From: Tetradesmus obliquus
Lineage: Eukaryota > Chlorophyta > Chlorophyceae > Sphaeropleales > Scenedesmaceae
Assembly: GCA_030272155.1 (NCBI GenBank)
Contig: CP126193.1
Coordinates: forward strand, 7,192,001 to 7,256,000
DNA length: 64,000 nucleotides
Direction of reading: 5' to 3'
The position numbers and the translations under genes were made by a program. Every line of letters begins with the position of its first letter. Position 1 is the first letter of the stretch. Under the pieces are notes generated by a model. The model was not told the origin of the DNA. It searched no databases and was given only the letters and a program-made list of their open reading frames with translations. Of this stretch, positions 1 through 24,160 are shown piece after piece.

Positions 1-260
1 ACACACGCACACATCTTGCATTGAAGCGCTGCTGCTGTGGCGACTGCACGCGGCGCGCAGAACTTGAAGTGCTGCACACCTGGCAAGCAGCCAGTCAAGC
101 CCCAGAACAATCTCTGCCCCCTCATAGACTTGGTGATGTATCTGACCTTGTCTGCACTGAGCCTGATGTAGAAGCGTCCCATCGCATCCATCCACACCGC
201 TGCGTTGCGCTCCTGCGCTGCTAACAAGGCTGCGCGCTGCCAATCCGGCAATTCTTGCAC
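1..260 (-). CDS. Antisense nuclease-like exon, copy 1 (partial)
   Basis: Only the first part of the exon, next to the acceptor at 261-266, is in the window. The nuclease-like motifs lie before base 1 and cannot be seen for this copy. Confidence 0.45.
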   Translation of the reverse strand, partial: MQELPDWQRAALLAAQERNAAVWMDAMGRFYIRLSADKVRYITKSMRGQRLFWGLTGCLPGVQHFKFCAPRAVATAAALQCKMCAC

Positions 261-266
261 CTGCAG

Positions 267-785
267 TTGAAGGACAAACCAACCCAGCAGGCCAAGAGCA
301 TGACTCAGCTGGAGTTTGTTCACTGCATGATGGAGATCAAAGACATAGCCAACCAACAGCAGGCGCAGCGCGGCACTACGCCGCTGTACATCTTTGACAA
401 CCCAAGTGTTCACCTGGGGAAGGATGGCCTACAGATGTTGGTTGCAGGTGGCATCAATGAAGATCAACTGCTGCACATTGCACCCTACTCCCCAGATTTC
501 AACAAGCCCATTGAACATGCATTTGGCAGCCTCAAAGCAGCCTTCCGCAACTACTTGTATAACAGCTGCCAGCTGGGTGGTGCTGATGTGAAGCCGCGAG
601 ACCTGCAGCACGGCCTGTACAACACCTTCATGAAGATCACAGCTGCATCTGTCATGGCTGATGTATTGAAGCTGCCAGATTTATGGAACATGGTGCGCAG
701 CCGCAAGAGGAGTCTTTGTGTGTGCCGAGACGGGAAGCAGCGCCGCGGCACTGCTGGCGACTACCCCAGGAAAGACCAGCGCTGA
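267..785 (+). pseudogene. Transposase 3' exon, copy 1 (5' part lies before the window)
   Basis: This carries catalytic Asp 2 (396-398), the SPDFNKPIEH Glu (513-515) and the basic C-terminal tail. The exon starts after the CTGCAG acceptor at 261-266, or after a second possible acceptor at 287. The frameshift and stop seen in complete copies would lie upstream, outside the window. Confidence 0.75.
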
Positions 786-2057
786 GTCTGCTGTAGTGCT
801 GCTGCAGGGCATGTAGGGATTGTGGCTGTCAGCTGCATGCAAGATGGCTGGCCAGCAGTGCACAGGGTGTCACTCAGAGAGCCCTTGAGCTCACCTGTTT
901 GAGGGCACCTGCGCTTGTCGCCGTCCTGCATGTTCGCACCGCCCGGGGCTTGGGAGGTGCTGGCACCATGCTGCTGTAGGGTGGTTACTTCCTGGTGTTC
1001 ACCTGAGAGCGAGTGTGGGAACAAAATGGCATGTTCAGAGGCTTATTGTATGAGTAAACTACATGTGGATGTTGTGCTTTGGTGCTCAGACTTGTCAGGA
1101 GTGGTTCCTGCTTCAAACGACTGCTGCAAGGCAGCAAGGCACTTGGTGGCCATTTCACATACAGGCATTTGCAGTCATGCTGAATTGCCGAATGTAATGG
1201 TAAAATTCCTGGCATAATTCAACTACGCTCGTAGCTCTTGAACATGGCTCCTGCTGCTGTCACTCGCGTTAGTTGTGACGACTGTTGGCCTGCCAAGCGA
1301 TATGCACGGAGCCTGCAAGAAACCTCGCGGTAAATTAACTTTTATATTTGATGATTGATTTAAGCATGGCTTGAGCCGAAATAAACTGCGGTATGGTGAA
1401 GAACTTCAAGACGGAAAGGTGCCCTGAAACAAGCCTGCTCCGAGCCACACAGCTGCCACGCTCCCAACTTTTCATCGTCGACACATTATGCAACGTACCT
1501 TTGGTTGAAGCACAAAACCAATCCTGAAGGGCCCTCGCAAGCCCACGTTGCAGGTGAGCCTGACGGGTCAACACGGATGTCCAGAGCACTGCAGCTCGAT
1601 CGCGTTGCTGCAGCACCTGCAAACAATTTGTAATGAACATTAAACGGCGTTAAACACAGCGCTGTACTGAAAGCCTTCGCAAAAAAATTAGGTAGCAGCA
1701 GTGAGGCACCTGCTGGCACATGCTGCTGCTGTCACGCCCACCAACAACTGCTGTTGAAAAACACATGCCACCGTGATTCAAAGCACACATAGCTGTAACG
1801 TTTCCTGTTGTCTGCTGCTGCTGCTGCTCCTGCCCAGGCAGATATCATATATTGCAAACAGTGCTACTGCCGCAGTAAAATCAGCTGCATACCCAGCAGC
1901 AGCAGGAGCACATCAGCCATAGCATGAAAAGGTAGGTGTGCACTTCAGGCACCAAGTCCAGGAACAGCAACAGAAGGGATGCAGTGCAGGCTAAGAACTG
2001 CTGCAGCAAAGGCTGGCATGCAATTACAGTCTCAGCTGGGCATGGTACAAACGTAGC

Positions 2058-2730
2058 GAACAAGTGGCCTACATATAAATGTCAAGCTTTCAACGACGAA
2101 TCTAAATCAATTTGAGCTGTTAGCAGTGGCACAGTGTGCTGCAAGAAAAGTGCTAAAAACACGTTGCCCTGAAGTGCCCCGACTCGGCTGTTACATATGT
2201 TAACTTGCGCTGTAGAGTGTTGCTGTGGGTGCTGCTGCCTGCAACATGTTTTGATGTGTAGTGTAACACTTCTGGGCTTCCCTTGCTGGCTGATCAGGCA
2301 CTGCAGTTCTGGTGTGCCAAGTGCCCTGCCGCTGCTGTTGCGCTCTGCTGCTTGGCGCTGTGCGCTGCACATACAGTTTCAACTGTCATATCTGTTACAT
2401 AGTGCGCAACACCGCTTCAGGCCCACCGGCAGCTGCTGCGCGCGTGCAGCTAGTGTGGCTGCACAGACTTTGTTGAGGACTAGTATTCTACACAGTTTCC
2501 TGCAAACATCCTTCTTGTGTGATCAAGGCGAATTCTGGAGCTCAAAATTACTAGCAGTTTGAAGCTGCTGCTGCTGGCAGGTTGGGGCCCTGCTGTGCAG
2601 TTGGGATGCAAGCAAACCAAAGCAGCAGCACTGGCAGCTGTGCCTTACTGTGCCTGCCACATACAGCAGGTTGCTATGCCAGCATGGCTGTCTGCTTGCA
2701 AGCTGTGTTGATTTGTTGCAAAATGCAGAT
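2058..2730 (-). repeat. 673-bp inter-element spacer, inverted
   Basis: This sequence lies between the right TIR of copy 1 and the adjacent TIR of inverted copy 2. It reads in the opposite sense to the spacers after 10620, as expected for material inside the inversion. I see no convincing gene in it; the open frames are cysteine- and serine-rich and lack a recognisable domain. Confidence 0.85.
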
Positions 2731-4002
2731 GCTACGTTTGTACCATGCCCAGCTGAGACTGTAATTGCATGCCAGCCTTTGCTGCAGCAGTTCTTAGCCT
2801 GCACTGCATCCCTTCTGTTGCTGTTCCTGGACTTGGTGCCTGAAGTGCACACCTACCTTTTCATGCTATGGCTGATGTGCTCCTGCTGCTGCTGGGTATG
2901 CAGCTGATTTTACTGCGGCAGTAGCACTGTTTGCAATATATGATATCTGCCTGGGCAGGAGCAGCAGCAGCAGCAGACAACAGGAAACGTTACAGCTATG
3001 TGTGCTTTGAATCACGGTGGCATGTGTTTTTCAACAGCAGTTGTTGGTGGGCGTGACAGCAGCAGCATGTGCCAGCAGGTGCCTCACTGCTGCTACCTAA
3101 TTTTTTTGCGAAGGCTTTCAGTACAGCGCTGTGTTTAACGCCGTTTAATGTTCATTACAAATTGTTTGCAGGTGCTGCAGCAACGCGATCGAGCTGCAGT
3201 GCTCTGGACATCCGTGTTGACCCGTCAGGCTCACCTGCAACGTGGGCTTGCGAGGGCCCTTCAGGATTGGTTTTGTGCTTCAACCAAAGGTACGTTGCAT
3301 AATGTGTCGACGATGAAAAGTTGGGAGCGTGGCAGCTGTGTGGCTCGGAGCAGGCTTGTTTCAGGGCACCTTTCCGTCTTGAAGTTCTTCACCATACCGC
3401 AGTTTATTTCGGCTCAAGCCATGCTTAAATCAATCATCAAATATAAAAGTTAATTTACCGCGAGGTTTCTTGCAGGCTCCGTGCATATCGCTTGGCAGGC
3501 CAACAGTCGTCACAACTAACGCGAGTGACAGCAGCAGGAGCCATGTTCAAGAGCTACGAGCGTAGTTGAATTATGCCAGGAATTTTACCATTACATTCGG
3601 CAATTCAGCATGACTGCAAATGCCTGTATGTGAAATGGCCACCAAGTGCCTTGCTGCCTTGCAGCAGTCGTTTGAAGCAGGAACCACTCCTGACAAGTCT
3701 GAGCACCAAAGCACAACATCCACATGTAGTTTACTCATACAATAAGCCTCTGAACATGCCATTTTGTTCCCACACTCGCTCTCAGGTGAACACCAGGAAG
3801 TAACCACCCTACAGCAGCATGGTGCCAGCACCTCCCAAGCCCCGGGCGGTGCGAACATGCAGGACGGCGACAAGCGCAGGTGCCCTCAAACAGGTGAGCT
3901 CAAGGGCTCTCTGAGTGACACCCTGTGCACTGCTGGCCAGCCATCTTGCATGCAGCTGACAGCCACAATCCCTACATGCCCTGCAGCAGCACTACAGCAG
4001 AC

Positions 4003-6205
4003 TCAGCGCTGGTCTTTCCTGGGGTAGTCGCCAGCAGTGCCGCGGCGCTGCTTCCCGTCTCGGCACACACAAAGACTCCTCTTGCGGCTGCGCACCATGT
4101 TCCATAAATCTGGCAGCTTCAATACATCAGCCATGACAGATGCAGCTGTGATCTTCATGAAGGTGTTGTACAGGCCGTGCTGCAGGTCTCGCGGCTTCAC
4201 ATCAGCACCACCCAGCTGGCAGCTGTTATACAAGTAGTTGCGGAAGGCTGCTTTGAGGCTGCCAAATGCATGTTCAATGGGCTTGTTGAAATCTGGGGAG
4301 TAGGGTGCAATGTGCAGCAGTTGATCTTCATTGATGCCACCTGCAACCAACATCTGTAGGCCATCCTTCCCCAGGTGAACACTTGGGTTGTCAAAGATGT
4401 ACAGCGGCGTAGTGCCGCGCTGCGCCTGCTGTTGGTTGGCTATGTCTTTGATCTCCATCATGCAGTGAACAAACTCCAGCTGAGTCATGCTCTTGGCCTG
4501 CTGGGTTGGTTTGTCCTTCAACTGCAGGTGCAAGAATTGCCGGATTGGCAGCGCGCAGCCTTGTTAGCAGCGCAGGAGCGCAACGCAGCGGTGTGGATGG
4601 ATGCGATGGGACGCTTCTACATCAGGCTCAGTGCAGACAAGGTCAGATACATCACCAAGTCTATGAGGGGGCAGAGATTGTTCTGGGGCTTGACTGGCTG
4701 CTTGCCAGGTGTGCAGCACTTCAAGTTCTGCGCGCCGCGTGCAGTCGCCACAGCAGCAGCGCTTCAATGCAAGATGTGTGCGTGTGTGCTGGCTGATATG
4801 GTTGGCACATGCATGGGCTACATGCACACAAGCGAGGAGCAGCTGGTGTGCATGCTGTACTGGTTAGGCATCAGCAGCAGTATGTGTGCTCAGGTAGCAG
4901 TGGACTGGTGGGATGGGCGGATTGATTTCCTCCATGCACAGCACAACATGCTGATTCAAGCTGATGGCTCATGTCATGACAAGGGTTATTACAGCAGCAG
5001 CAGGCAGCAGGTGCTGGAGCGCGACTTTGAGTTCTGCGCTGCAGCATATGACAACTGGCTGCAGCCAGGGGGCACTGTGCTGCGCGTGAGCACGCGCGGA
5101 TTTGACATGCACCAATCCTTGCACATTGGTTTCCAGCTTGCTGCTGCAGGTAGTGTCATTGTACTGTCACCAAGTTACTCTGCTGTTATGTTCACAGCAG
5201 AGGACGGGCAGCGCTGCAGCTTCACTACAGCATTAAAAAAAGCACTGCGGGACTGTTACTACACAGTACAGCAGGGCTGGCATGTCTTTCGATGGCAGGC
5301 GCCTGCGCAGTAGCAGCGCACACTCACCATGTACGGTACATTGAGGTTGCCAGCATGGTCCTTGTTGTCTGTTGTGCCGGTGACAAACTTGCAGTAGACG
5401 GGCCCGTGCACAGCGTTGACGGCGCAGACAAAGTGCAACTTGACCGGCTCTGCGTCCTTGCCCTTGCGCATCCATTTGCATGGCAGCACAGCATGCACGT
5501 TTTCATCGTGTGCATCACAATAGACCTTGACGGAGCCGCCTGCCAGGTCTGACATCCAGAATTTGCACTCATCAATGAATTATATGCGCTGCAGCATGTC
5601 GGGGTCACTTTGGTACTTCTGCCACAGCGCCGCAGCTGCTGCTTTTCGCCTTTGTTTCTGTATCTTTGTCAAGTCCAGCTTCACATCTATTCTCCTGCGC
5701 ACCAGGTCGGGGTCAGCCCATTTCATGTACTTCAGCAGTCTCTTGGGTGTGATGTTGTAGTCAGTGCACAGCTGGCGCAGTGTGTCATTTTCCTGACATG
5801 CGACTTCGATTGAAGTCCACCACACGTGCACATCAACCTGTCTCTTTGAATCTGCAGATGGGTAGGCCTTTACCACCTTGCCAGCCTTGAATATTGTGCT
5901 GGCATGGAAGGCGACAGCATGTGGGACATTTGAGGGCCTGCCGCCATGCTTGGGTGTAGCCACTGTGCCGTTTGCTGTGAAGTTCTTGTGATGAGTTTGC
6001 AGAACCGGTTCAGGTCCCCGTGTACCTCCTTGGCGTAGTCAGGGTACTGCTCTCTGTAATAATATGCGGGCGTAAACTTTTCGTCAGCTGTGGTCAAAGC
6101 CATTATCACACACACCACCGCCGCCACCCTCATGGCCGTGGTGCTGCGGTTGCTCTTCCATCCTGAAGGGTGCTTGCGCACCATGGACAGCCCCCCTGCA
6201 GGCAT
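4003..6205 (-). pseudogene. Transposase, copy 2 (inverted), same frameshift and stop
   Basis: Reads right to left: N-terminal frame 6205-5870, shifted frame 5963-5580 ending in TAA, FIDECKFW segment 5579-5328, intron 5327-4522, last exon 4521-4003. It shares every defect with the direct copies, so the defects predate both the amplification and the inversion. Confidence 0.75.
4528..5313 (+). CDS. Antisense nuclease-like exon, copy 2 (on plus because the element is inverted)
   Basis: In this copy the exon reads left to right: acceptor ...CAACTGCAG ending at 4527, 261 codons, stop at 5311-5313. Upstream on the same strand are plausible further coding segments: about 3172-3291 (acceptor TTTGCAG, donor AAAG|GTACGT), about 3475-3560, about 3665-3785, and about 3787-3895 (donor CAAACAG|GTGAGC). 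Their phases did not all join consistently, so the full gene model is open. Confidence 0.5.
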   Translation: MQELPDWQRAALLAAQERNAAVWMDAMGRFYIRLSADKVRYITKSMRGQRLFWGLTGCLPGVQHFKFCAPRAVATAAALQCKMCACVLADMVGTCMGYMHTSEEQLVCMLYWLGISSSMCAQVAVDWWDGRIDFLHAQHNMLIQADGSCHDKGYYSSSRQQVLERDFEFCAAAYDNWLQPGGTVLRVSTRGFDMHQSLHIGFQLAAAGSVIVLSPSYSAVMFTAEDGQRCSFTTALKKALRDCYYTVQQGWHVFRWQAPAQ

Positions 6206-6338
6206 GAATCCAAAACATATGGATATGTTAGCTGTGCTTCTAGCAGCAGTGTGAACAGAAGTAACTGGTCAGGTCAAACAACAGCCTGCGGCATCGTGGA
6301 GTTTGACCGGTCTCAGCTGGGCATGGTACAAACGTAGC

Positions 6339-7011
6339 GAACAAGTGGCCTACATATAAATGTCAAGCTTTCAACGACGAATCTAAATCAATTTGAGCTG
6401 TTAGCAGTGGCACAGTGTGCTGCAAGAAAAGTGCTAAAAACACGTTGCCCTGAAGTGCCCCGACTCGGCTGTTACATATGTTAACTTGCGCTGTAGAGTG
6501 TTGCTGTGGGTGCTGCTGCCTGCAACATGTTTTGATGTGTAGTGTAACACTTCTGGGCTTCCCTTGCTGGCTGATCAGGCACTGCAGTTCTGGTGTGCCA
6601 AGTGCCCTGCCGCTGCTGTTGCGCTCTGCTGCTTGGCGCTGTGCGCTGCACATACAGTTTCAACTGTCATATCTGTTACATAGTGCGCAACACCGCTTCA
6701 GGCCCACCGGCAGCTGCTGCGCGCGTGCAGCTAGTGTGGCTGCACAGACTTTGTTGAGGACTAGTATTCTACACAGTTTCCTGCAAACATCCTTCTTGTG
6801 TGATCAAGGCGAATTCTGGAGCTCAAAATTACTAGCAGTTTGAAGCTGCTGCTGCTGGCAGGTTGGGGCCCTGCTGTGCAGTTGGGATGCAAGCAAACCA
6901 AAGCAGCAGCACTGGCAGCTGTGCCTTACTGTGCCTGCCACATACAGCAGGTTGCTATGCCAGCATGGCTGTCTGCTTGCAAGCTGTGTTGATTTGTTGC
7001 AAAATGCAGAT
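6339..7011 (-). repeat. 673-bp inter-element spacer, inverted
   Basis: Same orientation as the spacer at 2058-2730. It separates inverted copy 2 from copy 3 and lies just inside the right edge of the inversion. No gene is supported. Confidence 0.85.
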
Positions 7012-7144
7012 GCTACGTTTGTACCATGCCCAGCTGAGACCGGTCAAACTCCACGATGCCGCAGGCTGTTGTTTGACCTGACCAGTTACTTCTGTTCACA
7101 CTGCTGCTAGAAGCACAGCTAACATATCCATATGTTTTGGATTC

Positions 7145-9347
7145 ATGCCTGCAGGGGGGCTGTCCATGGTGCGCAAGCACCCTTCAGGATGGAAGAGCAA
7201 CCGCAGCACCACGGCCATGAGGGTGGCGGCGGTGGTGTGTGTGATAATGGCTTTGACCACAGCTGACGAAAAGTTTACGCCCGCATATTATTACAGAGAG
7301 CAGTACCCTGACTACGCCAAGGAGGTACACGGGGACCTGAACCGGTTCTGCAAACTCATCACAAGAACTTCACAGCAAACGGCACAGTGGCTACACCCAA
7401 GCATGGCGGCAGGCCCTCAAATGTCCCACATGCTGTCGCCTTCCATGCCAGCACAATATTCAAGGCTGGCAAGGTGGTAAAGGCCTACCCATCTGCAGAT
7501 TCAAAGAGACAGGTTGATGTGCACGTGTGGTGGACTTCAATCGAAGTCGCATGTCAGGAAAATGACACACTGCGCCAGCTGTGCACTGACTACAACATCA
7601 CACCCAAGAGACTGCTGAAGTACATGAAATGGGCTGACCCCGACCTGGTGCGCAGGAGAATAGATGTGAAGCTGGACTTGACAAAGATACAGAAACAAAG
7701 GCGAAAAGCAGCAGCTGCGGCGCTGTGGCAGAAGTACCAAAGTGACCCCGACATGCTGCAGCGCATATAATTCATTGATGAGTGCAAATTCTGGATGTCA
7801 GACCTGGCAGGCGGCTCCGTCAAGGTCTATTGTGATGCACACGATGAAAACGTGCATGCTGTGCTGCCATGCAAATGGATGCGCAAGGGCAAGGACGCAG
7901 AGCCGGTCAAGTTGCACTTTGTCTGCGCCGTCAACGCTGTGCACGGGCCCGTCTACTGCAAGTTTGTCACCGGCACAACAGACAACAAGGACCATGCTGG
8001 CAACCTCAATGTACCGTACATGGTGAGTGTGCGCTGCTACTGCGCAGGCGCCTGCCATCGAAAGACATGCCAGCCCTGCTGTACTGTGTAGTAACAGTCC
8101 CGCAGTGCTTTTTTTAATGCTGTAGTGAAGCTGCAGCGCTGCCCGTCCTCTGCTGTGAACATAACAGCAGAGTAACTTGGTGACAGTACAATGACACTAC
8201 CTGCAGCAGCAAGCTGGAAACCAATGTGCAAGGATTGGTGCATGTCAAATCCGCGCGTGCTCACGCGCAGCACAGTGCCCCCTGGCTGCAGCCAGTTGTC
8301 ATATGCTGCAGCGCAGAACTCAAAGTCGCGCTCCAGCACCTGCTGCCTGCTGCTGCTGTAATAACCCTTGTCATGACATGAGCCATCAGCTTGAATCAGC
8401 ATGTTGTGCTGTGCATGGAGGAAATCAATCCGCCCATCCCACCAGTCCACTGCTACCTGAGCACACATACTGCTGCTGATGCCTAACCAGTACAGCATGC
8501 ACACCAGCTGCTCCTCGCTTGTGTGCATGTAGCCCATGCATGTGCCAACCATATCAGCCAGCACACACGCACACATCTTGCATTGAAGCGCTGCTGCTGT
8601 GGCGACTGCACGCGGCGCGCAGAACTTGAAGTGCTGCACACCTGGCAAGCAGCCAGTCAAGCCCCAGAACAATCTCTGCCCCCTCATAGACTTGGTGATG
8701 TATCTGACCTTGTCTGCACTGAGCCTGATGTAGAAGCGTCCCATCGCATCCATCCACACCGCTGCGTTGCGCTCCTGCGCTGCTAACAAGGCTGCGCGCT
8801 GCCAATCCGGCAATTCTTGCACCTGCAGTTGAAGGACAAACCAACCCAGCAGGCCAAGAGCATGACTCAGCTGGAGTTTGTTCACTGCATGATGGAGATC
8901 AAAGACATAGCCAACCAACAGCAGGCGCAGCGCGGCACTACGCCGCTGTACATCTTTGACAACCCAAGTGTTCACCTGGGGAAGGATGGCCTACAGATGT
9001 TGGTTGCAGGTGGCATCAATGAAGATCAACTGCTGCACATTGCACCCTACTCCCCAGATTTCAACAAGCCCATTGAACATGCATTTGGCAGCCTCAAAGC
9101 AGCCTTCCGCAACTACTTGTATAACAGCTGCCAGCTGGGTGGTGCTGATGTGAAGCCGCGAGACCTGCAGCACGGCCTGTACAACACCTTCATGAAGATC
9201 ACAGCTGCATCTGTCATGGCTGATGTATTGAAGCTGCCAGATTTATGGAACATGGTGCGCAGCCGCAAGAGGAGTCTTTGTGTGTGCCGAGACGGGAAGC
9301 AGCGCCGCGGCACTGCTGGCGACTACCCCAGGAAAGACCAGCGCTGA
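7145..9347 (+). pseudogene. Tc1/mariner (IS630-type) DDE transposase, DD38E, interrupted; copy 3
   Basis: Three segments form one transposase. The N-terminal part reads in one frame from about 7145 (TADEKFTPAYYYREQYPDYA) and shifts frame near 7340-7380 into a segment with a GGRP motif and a basic stretch, ending at a TAA (7768-7770). The same frame resumes at once with FIDECKFW, holding catalytic Asp 1 (7777-7779). An exon boundary after 8022 (ATG|GTGAGT) and an acceptor at 8828 join phase 0 to the last exon. That exon holds Asp 2 in IFDNPSVH (8958-8960) and the catalytic Glu in SPDFNKPIEH (9075-9077), 38 residues apart. These are the hallmarks of DDE_3 superfamily transposases, which cut and paste DNA at TIRs. 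A 41-nt intron (7328-7368) could instead explain the frame change. The TAA has no such explanation, so the gene looks dead unless read through. Confidence 0.75.
8037..8822 (-). CDS. Antisense terminal exon inside the transposase intron; possible Vsr/DUF559-like nuclease; copy 3
   Basis: This is a 261-codon open exon on the strand opposite the transposase, lying wholly within its intron (8023-8828). On the minus strand it follows a CTGCAG acceptor, and that palindrome (8823-8828) is also the plus-strand acceptor of the transposase last exon. The protein has WQRAALLAAQERNA, WDGRIDF, then LIQADGSCHDKG, QQVLERDFEFCAAAY and TVLRVS. The order R-x-D-F, hydrophobic-x-D-G-x-x-H, R-D, A, hydrophobic-L-R resembles PD-(D/E)XK nucleases of the Vsr/DUF559 type, with Gln where Glu is usual before x-D-G. 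That fold is inferred from the pattern only. The frame stays open past the acceptor to 8975, but that part is antisense to transposase coding sequence. Upstream exons probably lie at 9460-10200 (minus) and were not resolved. Confidence 0.5.
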   Translation of the reverse strand: MQELPDWQRAALLAAQERNAAVWMDAMGRFYIRLSADKVRYITKSMRGQRLFWGLTGCLPGVQHFKFCAPRAVATAAALQCKMCACVLADMVGTCMGYMHTSEEQLVCMLYWLGISSSMCAQVAVDWWDGRIDFLHAQHNMLIQADGSCHDKGYYSSSRQQVLERDFEFCAAAYDNWLQPGGTVLRVSTRGFDMHQSLHIGFQLAAAGSVIVLSPSYSAVMFTAEDGQRCSFTTALKKALRDCYYTVQQGWHVFRWQAPAQ

Positions 9348-10619
9348 GTCTGCTGTAGTGCTGCTGCAGGGCATGTAGGGATTGTGGCTGTCAGCTGCAT
9401 GCAAGATGGCTGGCCAGCAGTGCACAGGGTGTCACTCAGAGAGCCCTTGAGCTCACCTGTTTGAGGGCACCTGCGCTTGTCGCCGTCCTGCATGTTCGCA
9501 CCGCCCGGGGCTTGGGAGGTGCTGGCACCATGCTGCTGTAGGGTGGTTACTTCCTGGTGTTCACCTGAGAGCGAGTGTGGGAACAAAATGGCATGTTCAG
9601 AGGCTTATTGTATGAGTAAACTACATGTGGATGTTGTGCTTTGGTGCTCAGACTTGTCAGGAGTGGTTCCTGCTTCAAACGACTGCTGCAAGGCAGCAAG
9701 GCACTTGGTGGCCATTTCACATACAGGCATTTGCAGTCATGCTGAATTGCCGAATGTAATGGTAAAATTCCTGGCATAATTCAACTACGCTCGTAGCTCT
9801 TGAACATGGCTCCTGCTGCTGTCACTCGCGTTAGTTGTGACGACTGTTGGCCTGCCAAGCGATATGCACGGAGCCTGCAAGAAACCTCGCGGTAAATTAA
9901 CTTTTATATTTGATGATTGATTTAAGCATGGCTTGAGCCGAAATAAACTGCGGTATGGTGAAGAACTTCAAGACGGAAAGGTGCCCTGAAACAAGCCTGC
10001 TCCGAGCCACACAGCTGCCACGCTCCCAACTTTTCATCGTCGACACATTATGCAACGTACCTTTGGTTGAAGCACAAAACCAATCCTGAAGGGCCCTCGC
10101 AAGCCCACGTTGCAGGTGAGCCTGACGGGTCAACACGGATGTCCAGAGCACTGCAGCTCGATCGCGTTGCTGCAGCACCTGCAAACAATTTGTAATGAAC
10201 ATTAAACGGCGTTAAACACAGCGCTGTACTGAAAGCCTTCGCAAAAAAATTAGGTAGCAGCAGTGAGGCACCTGCTGGCACATGCTGCTGCTGTCACGCC
10301 CACCAACAACTGCTGTTGAAAAACACATGCCACCGTGATTCAAAGCACACATAGCTGTAACGTTTCCTGTTGTCTGCTGCTGCTGCTGCTCCTGCCCAGG
10401 CAGATATCATATATTGCAAACAGTGCTACTGCCGCAGTAAAATCAGCTGCATACCCAGCAGCAGCAGGAGCACATCAGCCATAGCATGAAAAGGTAGGTG
10501 TGCACTTCAGGCACCAAGTCCAGGAACAGCAACAGAAGGGATGCAGTGCAGGCTAAGAACTGCTGCAGCAAAGGCTGGCATGCAATTACAGTCTCAGCTG
10601 GGCATGGTACAAACGTAGC

Positions 10620-11292
10620 ATCTGCATTTTGCAACAAATCAACACAGCTTGCAAGCAGACAGCCATGCTGGCATAGCAACCTGCTGTATGTGGCAGGCAC
10701 AGTAAGGCACAGCTGCCAGTGCTGCTGCTTTGGTTTGCTTGCATCCCAACTGCACAGCAGGGCCCCAACCTGCCAGCAGCAGCAGCTTCAAACTGCTAGT
10801 AATTTTGAGCTCCAGAATTCGCCTTGATCACACAAGAAGGATGTTTGCAGGAAACTGTGTAGAATACTAGTCCTCAACAAAGTCTGTGCAGCCACACTAG
10901 CTGCACGCGCGCAGCAGCTGCCGGTGGGCCTGAAGCGGTGTTGCGCACTATGTAACAGATATGACAGTTGAAACTGTATGTGCAGCGCACAGCGCCAAGC
11001 AGCAGAGCGCAACAGCAGCGGCAGGGCACTTGGCACACCAGAACTGCAGTGCCTGATCAGCCAGCAAGGGAAGCCCAGAAGTGTTACACTACACATCAAA
11101 ACATGTTGCAGGCAGCAGCACCCACAGCAACACTCTACAGCGCAAGTTAACATATGTAACAGCCGAGTCGGGGCACTTCAGGGCAACGTGTTTTTAGCAC
11201 TTTTCTTGCAGCACACTGTGCCACTGCTAACAGCTCAAATTGATTTAGATTCGTCGTTGAAAGCTTGACATTTATATGTAGGCCACTTGTTC
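10620..11292 (+). repeat. 673-bp inter-element spacer
   Basis: Reference orientation, between copies 3 and 4. It is flanked by TIRs pointing inward, so the spacer with its flanks also looks like a 731-bp inverted-repeat element. No coding domain was recognised. Confidence 0.85.
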
Positions 11293-11425
11293 GCTACGTT
11301 TGTACCATGCCCAGCTGAGACCGGTCAAACTCCACGATGCCGCAGGCTGTTGTTTGACCTGACCAGTTACTTCTGTTCACACTGCTGCTAGAAGCACAGC
11401 TAACATATCCATATGTTTTGGATTC

Positions 11426-13628
11426 ATGCCTGCAGGGGGGCTGTCCATGGTGCGCAAGCACCCTTCAGGATGGAAGAGCAACCGCAGCACCACGGCCATG
11501 AGGGTGGCGGCGGTGGTGTGTGTGATAATGGCTTTGACCACAGCTGACGAAAAGTTTACGCCCGCATATTATTACAGAGAGCAGTACCCTGACTACGCCA
11601 AGGAGGTACACGGGGACCTGAACCGGTTCTGCAAACTCATCACAAGAACTTCACAGCAAACGGCACAGTGGCTACACCCAAGCATGGCGGCAGGCCCTCA
11701 AATGTCCCACATGCTGTCGCCTTCCATGCCAGCACAATATTCAAGGCTGGCAAGGTGGTAAAGGCCTACCCATCTGCAGATTCAAAGAGACAGGTTGATG
11801 TGCACGTGTGGTGGACTTCAATCGAAGTCGCATGTCAGGAAAATGACACACTGCGCCAGCTGTGCACTGACTACAACATCACACCCAAGAGACTGCTGAA
11901 GTACATGAAATGGGCTGACCCCGACCTGGTGCGCAGGAGAATAGATGTGAAGCTGGACTTGACAAAGATACAGAAACAAAGGCGAAAAGCAGCAGCTGCG
12001 GCGCTGTGGCAGAAGTACCAAAGTGACCCCGACATGCTGCAGCGCATATAATTCATTGATGAGTGCAAATTCTGGATGTCAGACCTGGCAGGCGGCTCCG
12101 TCAAGGTCTATTGTGATGCACACGATGAAAACGTGCATGCTGTGCTGCCATGCAAATGGATGCGCAAGGGCAAGGACGCAGAGCCGGTCAAGTTGCACTT
12201 TGTCTGCGCCGTCAACGCTGTGCACGGGCCCGTCTACTGCAAGTTTGTCACCGGCACAACAGACAACAAGGACCATGCTGGCAACCTCAATGTACCGTAC
12301 ATGGTGAGTGTGCGCTGCTACTGCGCAGGCGCCTGCCATCGAAAGACATGCCAGCCCTGCTGTACTGTGTAGTAACAGTCCCGCAGTGCTTTTTTTAATG
12401 CTGTAGTGAAGCTGCAGCGCTGCCCGTCCTCTGCTGTGAACATAACAGCAGAGTAACTTGGTGACAGTACAATGACACTACCTGCAGCAGCAAGCTGGAA
12501 ACCAATGTGCAAGGATTGGTGCATGTCAAATCCGCGCGTGCTCACGCGCAGCACAGTGCCCCCTGGCTGCAGCCAGTTGTCATATGCTGCAGCGCAGAAC
12601 TCAAAGTCGCGCTCCAGCACCTGCTGCCTGCTGCTGCTGTAATAACCCTTGTCATGACATGAGCCATCAGCTTGAATCAGCATGTTGTGCTGTGCATGGA
12701 GGAAATCAATCCGCCCATCCCACCAGTCCACTGCTACCTGAGCACACATACTGCTGCTGATGCCTAACCAGTACAGCATGCACACCAGCTGCTCCTCGCT
12801 TGTGTGCATGTAGCCCATGCATGTGCCAACCATATCAGCCAGCACACACGCACACATCTTGCATTGAAGCGCTGCTGCTGTGGCGACTGCACGCGGCGCG
12901 CAGAACTTGAAGTGCTGCACACCTGGCAAGCAGCCAGTCAAGCCCCAGAACAATCTCTGCCCCCTCATAGACTTGGTGATGTATCTGACCTTGTCTGCAC
13001 TGAGCCTGATGTAGAAGCGTCCCATCGCATCCATCCACACCGCTGCGTTGCGCTCCTGCGCTGCTAACAAGGCTGCGCGCTGCCAATCCGGCAATTCTTG
13101 CACCTGCAGTTGAAGGACAAACCAACCCAGCAGGCCAAGAGCATGACTCAGCTGGAGTTTGTTCACTGCATGATGGAGATCAAAGACATAGCCAACCAAC
13201 AGCAGGCGCAGCGCGGCACTACGCCGCTGTACATCTTTGACAACCCAAGTGTTCACCTGGGGAAGGATGGCCTACAGATGTTGGTTGCAGGTGGCATCAA
13301 TGAAGATCAACTGCTGCACATTGCACCCTACTCCCCAGATTTCAACAAGCCCATTGAACATGCATTTGGCAGCCTCAAAGCAGCCTTCCGCAACTACTTG
13401 TATAACAGCTGCCAGCTGGGTGGTGCTGATGTGAAGCCGCGAGACCTGCAGCACGGCCTGTACAACACCTTCATGAAGATCACAGCTGCATCTGTCATGG
13501 CTGATGTATTGAAGCTGCCAGATTTATGGAACATGGTGCGCAGCCGCAAGAGGAGTCTTTGTGTGTGCCGAGACGGGAAGCAGCGCCGCGGCACTGCTGG
13601 CGACTACCCCAGGAAAGACCAGCGCTGA
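11426..13628 (+). pseudogene. Transposase, copy 4, same frameshift and stop
   Basis: Segments are 11426-11761, 11668-12051 (TAA 12049-12051) and 12052-12303, then intron 12304-13109 and last exon 13110-13628. Sequence as in copy 3. Confidence 0.75.
12318..13103 (-). CDS. Antisense nuclease-like exon, copy 4
   Basis: Same 261-codon exon within the intron at 12304-13109. The shared acceptor palindrome is at 13104-13109. Confidence 0.5.
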   Translation of the reverse strand: MQELPDWQRAALLAAQERNAAVWMDAMGRFYIRLSADKVRYITKSMRGQRLFWGLTGCLPGVQHFKFCAPRAVATAAALQCKMCACVLADMVGTCMGYMHTSEEQLVCMLYWLGISSSMCAQVAVDWWDGRIDFLHAQHNMLIQADGSCHDKGYYSSSRQQVLERDFEFCAAAYDNWLQPGGTVLRVSTRGFDMHQSLHIGFQLAAAGSVIVLSPSYSAVMFTAEDGQRCSFTTALKKALRDCYYTVQQGWHVFRWQAPAQ

Positions 13629-14900
13629 GTCTGCTGTAGTGCTGCTGCAGGGCATGTAGGGATTGTGGCTGTCAGCTGCATGCAAGATGGCTGGCCAGCA
13701 GTGCACAGGGTGTCACTCAGAGAGCCCTTGAGCTCACCTGTTTGAGGGCACCTGCGCTTGTCGCCGTCCTGCATGTTCGCACCGCCCGGGGCTTGGGAGG
13801 TGCTGGCACCATGCTGCTGTAGGGTGGTTACTTCCTGGTGTTCACCTGAGAGCGAGTGTGGGAACAAAATGGCATGTTCAGAGGCTTATTGTATGAGTAA
13901 ACTACATGTGGATGTTGTGCTTTGGTGCTCAGACTTGTCAGGAGTGGTTCCTGCTTCAAACGACTGCTGCAAGGCAGCAAGGCACTTGGTGGCCATTTCA
14001 CATACAGGCATTTGCAGTCATGCTGAATTGCCGAATGTAATGGTAAAATTCCTGGCATAATTCAACTACGCTCGTAGCTCTTGAACATGGCTCCTGCTGC
14101 TGTCACTCGCGTTAGTTGTGACGACTGTTGGCCTGCCAAGCGATATGCACGGAGCCTGCAAGAAACCTCGCGGTAAATTAACTTTTATATTTGATGATTG
14201 ATTTAAGCATGGCTTGAGCCGAAATAAACTGCGGTATGGTGAAGAACTTCAAGACGGAAAGGTGCCCTGAAACAAGCCTGCTCCGAGCCACACAGCTGCC
14301 ACGCTCCCAACTTTTCATCGTCGACACATTATGCAACGTACCTTTGGTTGAAGCACAAAACCAATCCTGAAGGGCCCTCGCAAGCCCACGTTGCAGGTGA
14401 GCCTGACGGGTCAACACGGATGTCCAGAGCACTGCAGCTCGATCGCGTTGCTGCAGCACCTGCAAACAATTTGTAATGAACATTAAACGGCGTTAAACAC
14501 AGCGCTGTACTGAAAGCCTTCGCAAAAAAATTAGGTAGCAGCAGTGAGGCACCTGCTGGCACATGCTGCTGCTGTCACGCCCACCAACAACTGCTGTTGA
14601 AAAACACATGCCACCGTGATTCAAAGCACACATAGCTGTAACGTTTCCTGTTGTCTGCTGCTGCTGCTGCTCCTGCCCAGGCAGATATCATATATTGCAA
14701 ACAGTGCTACTGCCGCAGTAAAATCAGCTGCATACCCAGCAGCAGCAGGAGCACATCAGCCATAGCATGAAAAGGTAGGTGTGCACTTCAGGCACCAAGT
14801 CCAGGAACAGCAACAGAAGGGATGCAGTGCAGGCTAAGAACTGCTGCAGCAAAGGCTGGCATGCAATTACAGTCTCAGCTGGGCATGGTACAAACGTAGC

Positions 14901-15573
14901 ATCTGCATTTTGCAACAAATCAACACAGCTTGCAAGCAGACAGCCATGCTGGCATAGCAACCTGCTGTATGTGGCAGGCACAGTAAGGCACAGCTGCCAG
15001 TGCTGCTGCTTTGGTTTGCTTGCATCCCAACTGCACAGCAGGGCCCCAACCTGCCAGCAGCAGCAGCTTCAAACTGCTAGTAATTTTGAGCTCCAGAATT
15101 CGCCTTGATCACACAAGAAGGATGTTTGCAGGAAACTGTGTAGAATACTAGTCCTCAACAAAGTCTGTGCAGCCACACTAGCTGCACGCGCGCAGCAGCT
15201 GCCGGTGGGCCTGAAGCGGTGTTGCGCACTATGTAACAGATATGACAGTTGAAACTGTATGTGCAGCGCACAGCGCCAAGCAGCAGAGCGCAACAGCAGC
15301 GGCAGGGCACTTGGCACACCAGAACTGCAGTGCCTGATCAGCCAGCAAGGGAAGCCCAGAAGTGTTACACTACACATCAAAACATGTTGCAGGCAGCAGC
15401 ACCCACAGCAACACTCTACAGCGCAAGTTAACATATGTAACAGCCGAGTCGGGGCACTTCAGGGCAACGTGTTTTTAGCACTTTTCTTGCAGCACACTGT
15501 GCCACTGCTAACAGCTCAAATTGATTTAGATTCGTCGTTGAAAGCTTGACATTTATATGTAGGCCACTTGTTC
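14901..15573 (+). repeat. 673-bp inter-element spacer
   Basis: Between copies 4 and 5. Same sequence and orientation as 10620-11292. Confidence 0.85.
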
Positions 15574-15706
15574 GCTACGTTTGTACCATGCCCAGCTGAG
15601 ACCGGTCAAACTCCACGATGCCGCAGGCTGTTGTTTGACCTGACCAGTTACTTCTGTTCACACTGCTGCTAGAAGCACAGCTAACATATCCATATGTTTT
15701 GGATTC

Positions 15707-17909
15707 ATGCCTGCAGGGGGGCTGTCCATGGTGCGCAAGCACCCTTCAGGATGGAAGAGCAACCGCAGCACCACGGCCATGAGGGTGGCGGCGGTGGTGT
15801 GTGTGATAATGGCTTTGACCACAGCTGACGAAAAGTTTACGCCCGCATATTATTACAGAGAGCAGTACCCTGACTACGCCAAGGAGGTACACGGGGACCT
15901 GAACCGGTTCTGCAAACTCATCACAAGAACTTCACAGCAAACGGCACAGTGGCTACACCCAAGCATGGCGGCAGGCCCTCAAATGTCCCACATGCTGTCG
16001 CCTTCCATGCCAGCACAATATTCAAGGCTGGCAAGGTGGTAAAGGCCTACCCATCTGCAGATTCAAAGAGACAGGTTGATGTGCACGTGTGGTGGACTTC
16101 AATCGAAGTCGCATGTCAGGAAAATGACACACTGCGCCAGCTGTGCACTGACTACAACATCACACCCAAGAGACTGCTGAAGTACATGAAATGGGCTGAC
16201 CCCGACCTGGTGCGCAGGAGAATAGATGTGAAGCTGGACTTGACAAAGATACAGAAACAAAGGCGAAAAGCAGCAGCTGCGGCGCTGTGGCAGAAGTACC
16301 AAAGTGACCCCGACATGCTGCAGCGCATATAATTCATTGATGAGTGCAAATTCTGGATGTCAGACCTGGCAGGCGGCTCCGTCAAGGTCTATTGTGATGC
16401 ACACGATGAAAACGTGCATGCTGTGCTGCCATGCAAATGGATGCGCAAGGGCAAGGACGCAGAGCCGGTCAAGTTGCACTTTGTCTGCGCCGTCAACGCT
16501 GTGCACGGGCCCGTCTACTGCAAGTTTGTCACCGGCACAACAGACAACAAGGACCATGCTGGCAACCTCAATGTACCGTACATGGTGAGTGTGCGCTGCT
16601 ACTGCGCAGGCGCCTGCCATCGAAAGACATGCCAGCCCTGCTGTACTGTGTAGTAACAGTCCCGCAGTGCTTTTTTTAATGCTGTAGTGAAGCTGCAGCG
16701 CTGCCCGTCCTCTGCTGTGAACATAACAGCAGAGTAACTTGGTGACAGTACAATGACACTACCTGCAGCAGCAAGCTGGAAACCAATGTGCAAGGATTGG
16801 TGCATGTCAAATCCGCGCGTGCTCACGCGCAGCACAGTGCCCCCTGGCTGCAGCCAGTTGTCATATGCTGCAGCGCAGAACTCAAAGTCGCGCTCCAGCA
16901 CCTGCTGCCTGCTGCTGCTGTAATAACCCTTGTCATGACATGAGCCATCAGCTTGAATCAGCATGTTGTGCTGTGCATGGAGGAAATCAATCCGCCCATC
17001 CCACCAGTCCACTGCTACCTGAGCACACATACTGCTGCTGATGCCTAACCAGTACAGCATGCACACCAGCTGCTCCTCGCTTGTGTGCATGTAGCCCATG
17101 CATGTGCCAACCATATCAGCCAGCACACACGCACACATCTTGCATTGAAGCGCTGCTGCTGTGGCGACTGCACGCGGCGCGCAGAACTTGAAGTGCTGCA
17201 CACCTGGCAAGCAGCCAGTCAAGCCCCAGAACAATCTCTGCCCCCTCATAGACTTGGTGATGTATCTGACCTTGTCTGCACTGAGCCTGATGTAGAAGCG
17301 TCCCATCGCATCCATCCACACCGCTGCGTTGCGCTCCTGCGCTGCTAACAAGGCTGCGCGCTGCCAATCCGGCAATTCTTGCACCTGCAGTTGAAGGACA
17401 AACCAACCCAGCAGGCCAAGAGCATGACTCAGCTGGAGTTTGTTCACTGCATGATGGAGATCAAAGACATAGCCAACCAACAGCAGGCGCAGCGCGGCAC
17501 TACGCCGCTGTACATCTTTGACAACCCAAGTGTTCACCTGGGGAAGGATGGCCTACAGATGTTGGTTGCAGGTGGCATCAATGAAGATCAACTGCTGCAC
17601 ATTGCACCCTACTCCCCAGATTTCAACAAGCCCATTGAACATGCATTTGGCAGCCTCAAAGCAGCCTTCCGCAACTACTTGTATAACAGCTGCCAGCTGG
17701 GTGGTGCTGATGTGAAGCCGCGAGACCTGCAGCACGGCCTGTACAACACCTTCATGAAGATCACAGCTGCATCTGTCATGGCTGATGTATTGAAGCTGCC
17801 AGATTTATGGAACATGGTGCGCAGCCGCAAGAGGAGTCTTTGTGTGTGCCGAGACGGGAAGCAGCGCCGCGGCACTGCTGGCGACTACCCCAGGAAAGAC
17901 CAGCGCTGA
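15707..17909 (+). pseudogene. Transposase, copy 5, same frameshift and stop
   Basis: Segments are 15707-16042, 15949-16332 and 16333-16584, then intron 16585-17390 and last exon 17391-17909. Sequence as in copy 3. Confidence 0.75.
16599..17384 (-). CDS. Antisense nuclease-like exon, copy 5
   Basis: Same 261-codon exon within the intron at 16585-17390. The shared acceptor palindrome is at 17385-17390. Confidence 0.5.
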   Translation of the reverse strand: MQELPDWQRAALLAAQERNAAVWMDAMGRFYIRLSADKVRYITKSMRGQRLFWGLTGCLPGVQHFKFCAPRAVATAAALQCKMCACVLADMVGTCMGYMHTSEEQLVCMLYWLGISSSMCAQVAVDWWDGRIDFLHAQHNMLIQADGSCHDKGYYSSSRQQVLERDFEFCAAAYDNWLQPGGTVLRVSTRGFDMHQSLHIGFQLAAAGSVIVLSPSYSAVMFTAEDGQRCSFTTALKKALRDCYYTVQQGWHVFRWQAPAQ

Positions 17910-19181
17910 GTCTGCTGTAGTGCTGCTGCAGGGCATGTAGGGATTGTGGCTGTCAGCTGCATGCAAGATGGCTGGCCAGCAGTGCACAGGGTGTCACTCA
18001 GAGAGCCCTTGAGCTCACCTGTTTGAGGGCACCTGCGCTTGTCGCCGTCCTGCATGTTCGCACCGCCCGGGGCTTGGGAGGTGCTGGCACCATGCTGCTG
18101 TAGGGTGGTTACTTCCTGGTGTTCACCTGAGAGCGAGTGTGGGAACAAAATGGCATGTTCAGAGGCTTATTGTATGAGTAAACTACATGTGGATGTTGTG
18201 CTTTGGTGCTCAGACTTGTCAGGAGTGGTTCCTGCTTCAAACGACTGCTGCAAGGCAGCAAGGCACTTGGTGGCCATTTCACATACAGGCATTTGCAGTC
18301 ATGCTGAATTGCCGAATGTAATGGTAAAATTCCTGGCATAATTCAACTACGCTCGTAGCTCTTGAACATGGCTCCTGCTGCTGTCACTCGCGTTAGTTGT
18401 GACGACTGTTGGCCTGCCAAGCGATATGCACGGAGCCTGCAAGAAACCTCGCGGTAAATTAACTTTTATATTTGATGATTGATTTAAGCATGGCTTGAGC
18501 CGAAATAAACTGCGGTATGGTGAAGAACTTCAAGACGGAAAGGTGCCCTGAAACAAGCCTGCTCCGAGCCACACAGCTGCCACGCTCCCAACTTTTCATC
18601 GTCGACACATTATGCAACGTACCTTTGGTTGAAGCACAAAACCAATCCTGAAGGGCCCTCGCAAGCCCACGTTGCAGGTGAGCCTGACGGGTCAACACGG
18701 ATGTCCAGAGCACTGCAGCTCGATCGCGTTGCTGCAGCACCTGCAAACAATTTGTAATGAACATTAAACGGCGTTAAACACAGCGCTGTACTGAAAGCCT
18801 TCGCAAAAAAATTAGGTAGCAGCAGTGAGGCACCTGCTGGCACATGCTGCTGCTGTCACGCCCACCAACAACTGCTGTTGAAAAACACATGCCACCGTGA
18901 TTCAAAGCACACATAGCTGTAACGTTTCCTGTTGTCTGCTGCTGCTGCTGCTCCTGCCCAGGCAGATATCATATATTGCAAACAGTGCTACTGCCGCAGT
19001 AAAATCAGCTGCATACCCAGCAGCAGCAGGAGCACATCAGCCATAGCATGAAAAGGTAGGTGTGCACTTCAGGCACCAAGTCCAGGAACAGCAACAGAAG
19101 GGATGCAGTGCAGGCTAAGAACTGCTGCAGCAAAGGCTGGCATGCAATTACAGTCTCAGCTGGGCATGGTACAAACGTAGC

Positions 19182-19854
19182 ATCTGCATTTTGCAACAAA
19201 TCAACACAGCTTGCAAGCAGACAGCCATGCTGGCATAGCAACCTGCTGTATGTGGCAGGCACAGTAAGGCACAGCTGCCAGTGCTGCTGCTTTGGTTTGC
19301 TTGCATCCCAACTGCACAGCAGGGCCCCAACCTGCCAGCAGCAGCAGCTTCAAACTGCTAGTAATTTTGAGCTCCAGAATTCGCCTTGATCACACAAGAA
19401 GGATGTTTGCAGGAAACTGTGTAGAATACTAGTCCTCAACAAAGTCTGTGCAGCCACACTAGCTGCACGCGCGCAGCAGCTGCCGGTGGGCCTGAAGCGG
19501 TGTTGCGCACTATGTAACAGATATGACAGTTGAAACTGTATGTGCAGCGCACAGCGCCAAGCAGCAGAGCGCAACAGCAGCGGCAGGGCACTTGGCACAC
19601 CAGAACTGCAGTGCCTGATCAGCCAGCAAGGGAAGCCCAGAAGTGTTACACTACACATCAAAACATGTTGCAGGCAGCAGCACCCACAGCAACACTCTAC
19701 AGCGCAAGTTAACATATGTAACAGCCGAGTCGGGGCACTTCAGGGCAACGTGTTTTTAGCACTTTTCTTGCAGCACACTGTGCCACTGCTAACAGCTCAA
19801 ATTGATTTAGATTCGTCGTTGAAAGCTTGACATTTATATGTAGGCCACTTGTTC
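19182..19854 (+). repeat. 673-bp inter-element spacer
   Basis: Between copies 5 and 6. Same sequence and orientation as 10620-11292. Confidence 0.85.
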
Positions 19855-19987
19855 GCTACGTTTGTACCATGCCCAGCTGAGACCGGTCAAACTCCACGAT
19901 GCCGCAGGCTGTTGTTTGACCTGACCAGTTACTTCTGTTCACACTGCTGCTAGAAGCACAGCTAACATATCCATATGTTTTGGATTC

Positions 19988-22190: not shown

Positions 22191-23462
22191 GTCTGCTGTA
22201 GTGCTGCTGCAGGGCATGTAGGGATTGTGGCTGTCAGCTGCATGCAAGATGGCTGGCCAGCAGTGCACAGGGTGTCACTCAGAGAGCCCTTGAGCTCACC
22301 TGTTTGAGGGCACCTGCGCTTGTCGCCGTCCTGCATGTTCGCACCGCCCGGGGCTTGGGAGGTGCTGGCACCATGCTGCTGTAGGGTGGTTACTTCCTGG
22401 TGTTCACCTGAGAGCGAGTGTGGGAACAAAATGGCATGTTCAGAGGCTTATTGTATGAGTAAACTACATGTGGATGTTGTGCTTTGGTGCTCAGACTTGT
22501 CAGGAGTGGTTCCTGCTTCAAACGACTGCTGCAAGGCAGCAAGGCACTTGGTGGCCATTTCACATACAGGCATTTGCAGTCATGCTGAATTGCCGAATGT
22601 AATGGTAAAATTCCTGGCATAATTCAACTACGCTCGTAGCTCTTGAACATGGCTCCTGCTGCTGTCACTCGCGTTAGTTGTGACGACTGTTGGCCTGCCA
22701 AGCGATATGCACGGAGCCTGCAAGAAACCTCGCGGTAAATTAACTTTTATATTTGATGATTGATTTAAGCATGGCTTGAGCCGAAATAAACTGCGGTATG
22801 GTGAAGAACTTCAAGACGGAAAGGTGCCCTGAAACAAGCCTGCTCCGAGCCACACAGCTGCCACGCTCCCAACTTTTCATCGTCGACACATTATGCAACG
22901 TACCTTTGGTTGAAGCACAAAACCAATCCTGAAGGGCCCTCGCAAGCCCACGTTGCAGGTGAGCCTGACGGGTCAACACGGATGTCCAGAGCACTGCAGC
23001 TCGATCGCGTTGCTGCAGCACCTGCAAACAATTTGTAATGAACATTAAACGGCGTTAAACACAGCGCTGTACTGAAAGCCTTCGCAAAAAAATTAGGTAG
23101 CAGCAGTGAGGCACCTGCTGGCACATGCTGCTGCTGTCACGCCCACCAACAACTGCTGTTGAAAAACACATGCCACCGTGATTCAAAGCACACATAGCTG
23201 TAACGTTTCCTGTTGTCTGCTGCTGCTGCTGCTCCTGCCCAGGCAGATATCATATATTGCAAACAGTGCTACTGCCGCAGTAAAATCAGCTGCATACCCA
23301 GCAGCAGCAGGAGCACATCAGCCATAGCATGAAAAGGTAGGTGTGCACTTCAGGCACCAAGTCCAGGAACAGCAACAGAAGGGATGCAGTGCAGGCTAAG
23401 AACTGCTGCAGCAAAGGCTGGCATGCAATTACAGTCTCAGCTGGGCATGGTACAAACGTAGC

Positions 23463-24135
23463 ATCTGCATTTTGCAACAAATCAACACAGCTTGCAAGCA
23501 GACAGCCATGCTGGCATAGCAACCTGCTGTATGTGGCAGGCACAGTAAGGCACAGCTGCCAGTGCTGCTGCTTTGGTTTGCTTGCATCCCAACTGCACAG
23601 CAGGGCCCCAACCTGCCAGCAGCAGCAGCTTCAAACTGCTAGTAATTTTGAGCTCCAGAATTCGCCTTGATCACACAAGAAGGATGTTTGCAGGAAACTG
23701 TGTAGAATACTAGTCCTCAACAAAGTCTGTGCAGCCACACTAGCTGCACGCGCGCAGCAGCTGCCGGTGGGCCTGAAGCGGTGTTGCGCACTATGTAACA
23801 GATATGACAGTTGAAACTGTATGTGCAGCGCACAGCGCCAAGCAGCAGAGCGCAACAGCAGCGGCAGGGCACTTGGCACACCAGAACTGCAGTGCCTGAT
23901 CAGCCAGCAAGGGAAGCCCAGAAGTGTTACACTACACATCAAAACATGTTGCAGGCAGCAGCACCCACAGCAACACTCTACAGCGCAAGTTAACATATGT
24001 AACAGCCGAGTCGGGGCACTTCAGGGCAACGTGTTTTTAGCACTTTTCTTGCAGCACACTGTGCCACTGCTAACAGCTCAAATTGATTTAGATTCGTCGT
24101 TGAAAGCTTGACATTTATATGTAGGCCACTTGTTC
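23463..24135 (+). repeat. 673-bp spacer, last of the array
   Basis: Follows copy 6 and is complete. It leads into the truncated TIR at the array edge. Confidence 0.85.
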
Positions 24136-24160
24136 GCTACGTTTGTACCATGCCCAGCTG
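24136..24160 (+). repeat. Truncated left TIR marking the array end
   Basis: Twenty-five of the 29 TIR bases are present, ending ...CCCAGCTG. Internal copies continue AGACCGG here, but this copy runs into ATTTCCGAAACG. The array therefore stops inside what would be the left TIR of a seventh element. The junction marks either the array's insertion edge or a deletion end point. Confidence 0.85.

Follow-up and report, generated by a model that had tools for sequence, protein, structure and literature searches.

The window analysed here, a 64,000-nucleotide stretch of contig CP126193.1 from a genome of 104.7 Mb in 17 contigs (C1–C17), carries a DNA transposon with two predicted genes on opposite strands: a transposase gene on the (+) strand and, on the (−) strand, a long open exon lying within the transposase intron. 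This arrangement had been described in an initial annotation made from the sequence alone, which noted a resemblance of the antisense product to Vsr/DUF559-type nucleases, and we found its layout and coordinates (transposase donor at 8023, CTGCAG at 8823-8828, antisense frame 8822-8037) to be exact in the sequence. The palindrome CTGCAG had been proposed as the splice acceptor of both genes, read from opposite sides; it fits that role and is conserved in a sister subfamily of the element. Comparisons rest on two samples. Of 282 first-look copies of the element, 146 were scored for stops in the antisense frame and 26 were aligned (20 full fetched loci and 6 partial loci, with 3 of the 26 from a single array on C4). 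Together with the window, these near-identical copies make 27 rows, and counts past approximately position 9930 are based on the 21 full rows. The sister subfamily was reached with a transposase motif pattern allowing alternative codons, which gave 106 matches on C4, C6, C10 and C13, the motif being a single sequence among the matches listed (100 of 106). Four sister copies from four contigs were sampled, and with the window they form a five-row alignment.

The transposase appears to be IS630-Tc1-mariner (ITm)-like. Its last exon, which holds the D and E of the DDE triad, matched DDE_3 (PF13358) with E 4.8e-5 and 23.7 bits. In a further Pfam search of the transposase, DDE_3 was the sole match, with E 5e-5 and 23.6 bits; neither score reaches the cut-off of 28.6. 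The transposase reading phase is 0 at either side of the 806-bp intron, and the contexts of the splice sites are identical in 27 of 27 rows. A further transposase exon may lie upstream of 7166. An intron-less copy, sought with at most 3 mismatches, was not found. In the window, which belongs to an array on C3, transposase exon 7166-8022 has one frameshift and one nonsense codon, both private to that array, and 25 of the 26 other sampled copies are free of stops in the transposase exons that they cover, the exception being locus L055. We therefore rejected the idea that a broken transposase characterises the element. The contrast drawn earlier between an intact nuclease and a broken transposase holds for the C3 array and fails for the element as a whole, some other copies having instead lost parts of the antisense protein. 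Other DDE_3 transposase families are also present in the genome (L045–L049, on C6, C15 and C17, with 4 of the 5 matches above the Pfam cut-off), and no antisense nuclease frame was found in the 3-kb loci examined for them.

On the (−) strand, the frame is open from 8822 to a stop codon at 8037-8039, which gives 261 codons, or 317 if the frame is extended back to 8990. Because the conserved stretch of protein starts right at the acceptor, and because the first in-frame ATG of the long exon in the window comes only at residue 24, a spliced start is the likelier one. A probable first exon at 9531-9457, with an ATG, a donor and a matching phase in both subfamilies, gives plausible form to the upstream antisense exons that the initial annotation had supposed. 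This (−) strand exon lies downstream of the transposase stop codon, is exactly 75 bp in window and sister, and has GTGAGC at its end. In both subfamilies an in-frame stop precedes it by 18 bases (read by eye), and all 26 rows that cover it, the window included, keep it open and its donor intact. Its product is basic, that of the sister more so, and 13 of the 25 residues are identical between the two (by eye count). Joined to the 261-codon exon, this basic exon would give an antisense protein of approximately 286 residues. In the sister, the pyrimidine tract that precedes the antisense acceptor is the complement of the lysine-rich start of the transposase exon. Another antisense exon candidate, an open frame with good splice sites at 10178-10061, was rejected, as it falls almost wholly outside the stretch alignable with the sister and its acceptor varies among copies.

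In this gene model the antisense intron encloses the entire last exon of the transposase, and the transposase intron encloses the entire last exon of the antisense gene. The two genes interlock, since the last coding exon of each sits within the intron of the other, and CTGCAG terminates both introns in both subfamilies. Interlocking and the common acceptor thereby accommodate two long coding sequences in a compact element with no overlap of codons.

Table 1. Predicted genes, repeats and array in the window (positions are those of the window)
Feature	Position	Strand	Remarks
Part of tandem array, 4281-bp units (internal region + long terminal direct repeat)	1..24160	.	
Antisense exon, four more complete copies	4528-5313; 12318-13103, 16599-17384, 20880-21665	+; − (last three)	
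723-bp repeat, inverted relative to the right-hand copy	6314..7036	−	
Composite-like element: internal region (INT)	7037..10594	+	
Transposase exon, IS630-Tc1-mariner-like DDE	7166..8022	+	predicted start codon
Transposase intron, GTGAGTG...CTGCAG, 806 bp (sister: 809 bp)	8023..8828	+	predicted splicing
Antisense exon 2, 261 codons + stop, DUF559-like motif block at about residues 99-187	8037..8822	−	open frame and conservation
CTGCAG, putative acceptor for both genes from opposite sides	8823..8828	.	kept in sister with flanking TTCAACTGCAGGTGCA
Antisense intron, GTGAGC...CTGCAG, 634 bp (sister: 647 bp)	8823..9456	−	predicted splicing
Transposase last exon, D and E of the DDE triad	8829..9347	+	D-38-E by hand count
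Probable antisense exon 1, ATG, 25 codons, phase 0 into exon 2	9457..9531	−	common to both subfamilies
Long terminal direct repeat (LTDR) of 723 bp; own terminal inverted repeats of 25 bp, CAGCTGGG...CCCAGCTG	10595..11317	+	

Taken alone, the open antisense frame goes only moderately beyond what chance would give. Open runs of at least 261 codons in 806 bp arose in 0–1.45% of simulated strands, depending on the model. The composition of the frame is coding-like, with a guanine plus cytosine (GC) fraction by codon position of 0.56/0.46/0.64. Under two models, with 3000 simulations each, its difference of 0.18 between third and second positions was reached 4 times and once, respectively. The shared palindrome is by itself weak evidence because CTGCAG is common in this sequence (152 occurrences against 12 expected from base composition in 39.8 kb, approximately 12 times commoner).

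Comparison of the two subfamilies at the sequence level is what decides the matter. Relatives conserving the antisense frame, whose absence the initial annotation had named as contrary to its reading, were looked for, and the frame is kept in all four sister copies with 56.4–57.6% amino acid identity (E 2.4e-98 or better) at a DNA identity to the window of 73.0–73.7% in the intron region. The DNA alignments of these four copies with the window have gaps only in multiples of three and zero aligned columns out of frame, and the sister retains both introns and the common CTGCAG acceptor. Between sister and window, the antisense exon has a synonymous divergence (dS) of 0.603 and a nonsynonymous divergence (dN) of 0.301, a ratio of 0.50 (bootstrap of the ratio of uncorrected proportions, pN/pS, 0.47–0.76; Fisher p 3.7e-5 for synonymous versus nonsynonymous), and the remaining five frames of the same stretch have ratios of 0.63–1.24. 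For the transposase the corresponding values are dS 0.732 and ratio 0.335 in exon 1, and dS 0.594 and ratio 0.374 in exon 2. When sequences were evolved neutrally to the divergence of the sister, the antisense frame stayed free of stops in 2 of 5000 runs. Frame, indel phase, dN/dS and the neutral-drift test together establish the antisense exon as a conserved protein-coding exon, and show that it was under purifying selection between the subfamilies.

We call the product of this exon DUF559-like and probably of the PD-(D/E)XK type, and we regard a nuclease fold as likely. DUF559 (PF04480) was the only Pfam match for both subfamilies. When compared by hhalign with ten aligned DUF559 sequences, the antisense protein gave E 0.0033, a score equalled by 1 of 200 column-shuffled controls, and with the DUF559 profile built from the ten sequences in HMMER, five of five members scored higher than every one of 1000 shuffled versions of the window protein. 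The motif order is S-E-E, R-x-D-F, D-G-x-x-H, R-D (in 4 of 5 rows) and V-L-R-V. Across approximately 42% amino acid difference, the five-row alignment has R131, D133, F134, D146, G147, H150, R165 and V184-L-R-V invariant, as well as the cysteines C58, C68, C81, C84 and C86. DUF559 and the antisense protein thus have the motif block in a common order; they differ in that the prokaryotic DUF559 members compared are short, whereas in the antisense protein a Cys-rich region, and also a basic exon, comes before the block, and in that the antisense protein has Q as the first residue of the E-x-D-G strand. A DUF559 search of the genome itself returned six places, each a copy of the antisense exon. 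Protein searches of viral and GTDB contigs, with the single sequence and with the alignment, yielded no relative; phages gave no match and plasmids one, at E 4. The best PHROGs match had E 0.26, NCBIfam gave none, and PADLOC gave none in five members. A sequence search of the PDB returned three weak matches to unrelated molecules (best E 0.059), and none with the alignment. Motif patterns aimed at host homologues gave 15 matches against 14 control matches, the three inspected being unrelated, and a second round gave 1 against 1.

The two genes lie in an element whose full extent is visible in four single copies (on C1, on C7 and two on C8). These are 4999–5005 bp long and have the internal region (INT) between two 723-bp direct repeats, with the left and right long terminal direct repeats (LTDRs) identical within each of the four (L051, L053, L055 and L059 with L094–L097). 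All four are flanked by 3-bp target duplications (GGC, TCT, GCA and AAT), and none has the TA target duplication of Tc1/mariner, so that plain Tc1/mariner does not fit. Terminal repeats of 29 bp with TA duplications had been considered as the element ends and were rejected, as the single copies end in CAGCTG with 3-bp duplications. In arrays, the spacing is approximately 4280 bp where repeat and internal region alternate and approximately 3562 bp where internal regions abut. At all four INT-INT junctions that were read (L058, L060, L063 and L064) exactly 3 bp of the repeat are left, CAG once and CTG three times, which suggests the footprint of cut-and-paste excision of the repeat. Sister arrays have spacings of approximately 3590 and 4310 bp, a difference again of approximately 720. 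Arrays of both subfamilies occur on at least 12 of the 17 contigs (C1, C3, C4, C5, C7, C8, C10, C12, C13, C14, C16 and C17), and the array process therefore shapes the genome. Examples of arrays are C13:1054218-1266007 and C4:127513-272618. A copy of the repeat at C12:4565207-4565847, with no INT nearby among the matches listed, is a candidate solo repeat. In the window, the inverted repeat at 6314-7036 converts the direct repeats of its unit into a long inverted repeat. At window 9348-10590, the 3′ INT haplotypes are approximately 2–8% apart in most of the compared pairs and the remainder less than 3% different, which suggests, from sequence comparison, that the haplotypes came from recombination between subfamilies.

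A layout with LTDRs has so far been described for KolobokP, an unrelated animal family, from which the interlocked antisense DUF559-like gene sets the present element apart. Kolobok transposons duplicate TTAA at the target. According to its description, KolobokP has an INT between LTDRs of approximately 450 or 660 bp, each with short inverted repeats of its own, encodes a DDE transposase and a small His-Me finger nuclease, forms multimers of the type (LTDR-INT)n-LTDR as well as INT-INT joins, and is found in seven animal phyla; excision of the repeat is strongly suggested there, and 'induced unequal crossover' is put forward for the multimers (Kojima and Bao 2022, PMC9587614). Neither 'antisense' nor 'opposite' occurs in the main text of that paper. 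The LTDR-INT-LTDR order with repeat-borne inverted repeats is likewise seen in four of four single copies here, with repeats of 723 bp. Multimers occur here as well, and repeat excision is suggested by the 3-bp remnants. The differences are that DDE_3 is the sole, sub-threshold transposase match here and the duplications are of 3 bp, and that the nuclease is DUF559-like (again sub-threshold) where KolobokP has a His-Me finger. Because transposase group, target duplication, nuclease fold and host range differ, we take the present element to be an analogue of KolobokP and not a member.

Transposase and nuclease also share an element in ISL2EU/PHIS, where the nuclease is of the PD-(D/E)XK-type YqaJ family; the transposase group is other than that of the present element. 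Zator transposons make 3-bp target duplications, and Zator is our nearest guess for the closest transposase superfamily. It is treated as a sister superfamily in PMC7386202. In the Mariner elements of algal viruses and in Fanzor1-bearing elements, a Mariner-type transposase is combined with an endonuclease that is GIY-YIG, EcoRII-C-like or a REBASE hypothetical, and in some with Fanzor or a methyltransferase, as described by Bao and Jurka (2013, PMC3627910), whose main text does not use the word intron. These elements have TA duplications and other nuclease families, in contrast to the 3-bp duplications here (PMC3627910). In the limited open literature searched, no report of a transposase intron that holds an interlocked or antisense gene, and none of DUF559 or Vsr in eukaryotic transposons, was present among the matches listed.

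Together, these features make it fairly probable that the locus is a two-gene interlocked element, with a DDE transposase and an antisense protein that is most likely a DUF559-like PD-(D/E)XK nuclease, for which we propose a KolobokP-like function. By analogy with KolobokP, the transposase would move entire elements and single repeats, and the antisense nuclease would cut element DNA, perhaps where repeat ends abut or at a repeat. Units would then be added as the break is repaired from a misaligned sister copy, and long tandem arrays would build up. The part of the nuclease in array growth is tentative, and on this analogy we put it somewhat below an even chance. It is also possible, though we would not assert it, that the design of transposase, nuclease, self-mobile LTDR and multimer arose here a second time independently, in the ITm group of an apparent alga and with an interlocked antisense PD-(D/E)XK-type nuclease. 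Such recurrence, if true, would imply array growth driven by the nuclease through cutting of the repeats. Two unrelated DNA transposon groups with a nuclease, self-mobile repeats and tandem arrays would suggest a common mode of multiplication. The interlocked antisense genes matter in their own right, as they show how a small mobile element may pack two long genes by way of mutual introns, and they raise a regulatory question: both transcripts can pair, and the splicing of either would remove the stretch opposite the coding exon of the other.

Several observations weigh against this reading, and most are best taken with the explanation that each favours. At the level of the gene model, changes in antisense exon 1 have no codon-position bias (6, 9, 8), both splicing schemes and transcription are predictions, and in the sister an in-frame ATG lies opposite the transposase exon, upstream of the acceptor, by which an unspliced start, the less likely one, could operate in that subfamily. 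Regarding the arrays, passive unequal crossover between repeats requires no element-encoded nuclease, and copies with D133 changed to Asn (in clusters on C7 and C16) or with a stop in the antisense frame (in an array on C17) are located in arrays. Arrays may have grown purely by passive unequal crossover between the 723-bp repeats, direct repeats being sufficient for it, with the nuclease serving some other task, such as aiding excision or opposing rival elements. We consider this a serious alternative, a little short of an even chance; it leaves unexplained why two unrelated transposon groups combine a nuclease, such repeats and multimers.

The antisense protein was selected between subfamilies, and selection on it is not visible among recent copies. 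Across the 27 rows, the antisense exon has 10 changes that are synonymous, 29 that are nonsynonymous and 2 that create a stop (ratio 0.98), versus 10, 10 and 2 and 11, 11 and 0 in the transposase exons of the same rows (ratio approximately 0.34). Among the four sister copies, too, the antisense frame has 14 nonsynonymous differences beside 5 synonymous ones and a single stop. The putative catalytic residue D133 is Asn in 5 of the 27 rows (L051–L054 and L058), all with open transposase frames; stops interrupt the frame early in L039 and near the end in L056 and L057, and 14 of the 146 scored copies have a stop within it. These data would be expected if the antisense gene, a captured nuclease functional while the subfamilies diverged, has lost its need and is now decaying cargo, an explanation that we hold to be possible and still the less probable side of the question. 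Set against it, 24 of the 27 rows keep an open frame, and array copies may be inactive, in which case neutral changes would be expected even if the master copies need the gene.

The nuclease identity is questioned by the strength of the matches. DUF559 was matched below its curated cut-off of 20.6 bits in both the window (E 0.04, 14.2 bits, residues 132-165) and the sister (E 0.23, 11.8 bits, residues 99-165), the hhalign probability was just 9.7%, and a Vsr alignment of five sequences did not match the motif block of the antisense protein. Structure prediction by AlphaFold without an alignment gave predicted local distance difference test (pLDDT) values of 33.6 and 41.2 and no usable model. 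The nuclease-like reading of the initial annotation is partly supported, through the DUF559-like motif order. The protein might instead be conserved without being a nuclease, as a DNA- or zinc-binding accessory that helps or represses the transposase, its likeness to DUF559 being a coincidence or a dead fold. The D133 change beside open transposase frames, the replacement of R-D by R-N (the D after R165) in sister copy L074, and the conserved Cys and His residues, among them the five invariant cysteines, are in line with such a role. We consider it unlikely, as the same sole family was matched in the same register in both subfamilies, the motif residues are invariant despite the divergence of the proteins, and all five members outscored the 1000 shuffles.

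An origin of the long antisense frame by chance, through the low density of stops in a genome rich in CAG/CTG, is very improbable: runs of this length do appear in up to 1.45% of simulated strands and the window has further long frames without a Pfam match, but frame, motif and indel phase are kept in the sister subfamily, a comparison that speaks strongly to the contrary.

Elsewhere in the window, an open frame at 25304-26410 (+) matches STIG1 (E 1.2e-9), and another at 39852-41093 (+) matches an ABC transporter membrane region (E 5e-8). A perfect tandem repeat of 8 copies of a 31-bp unit lies at 43008-43254.

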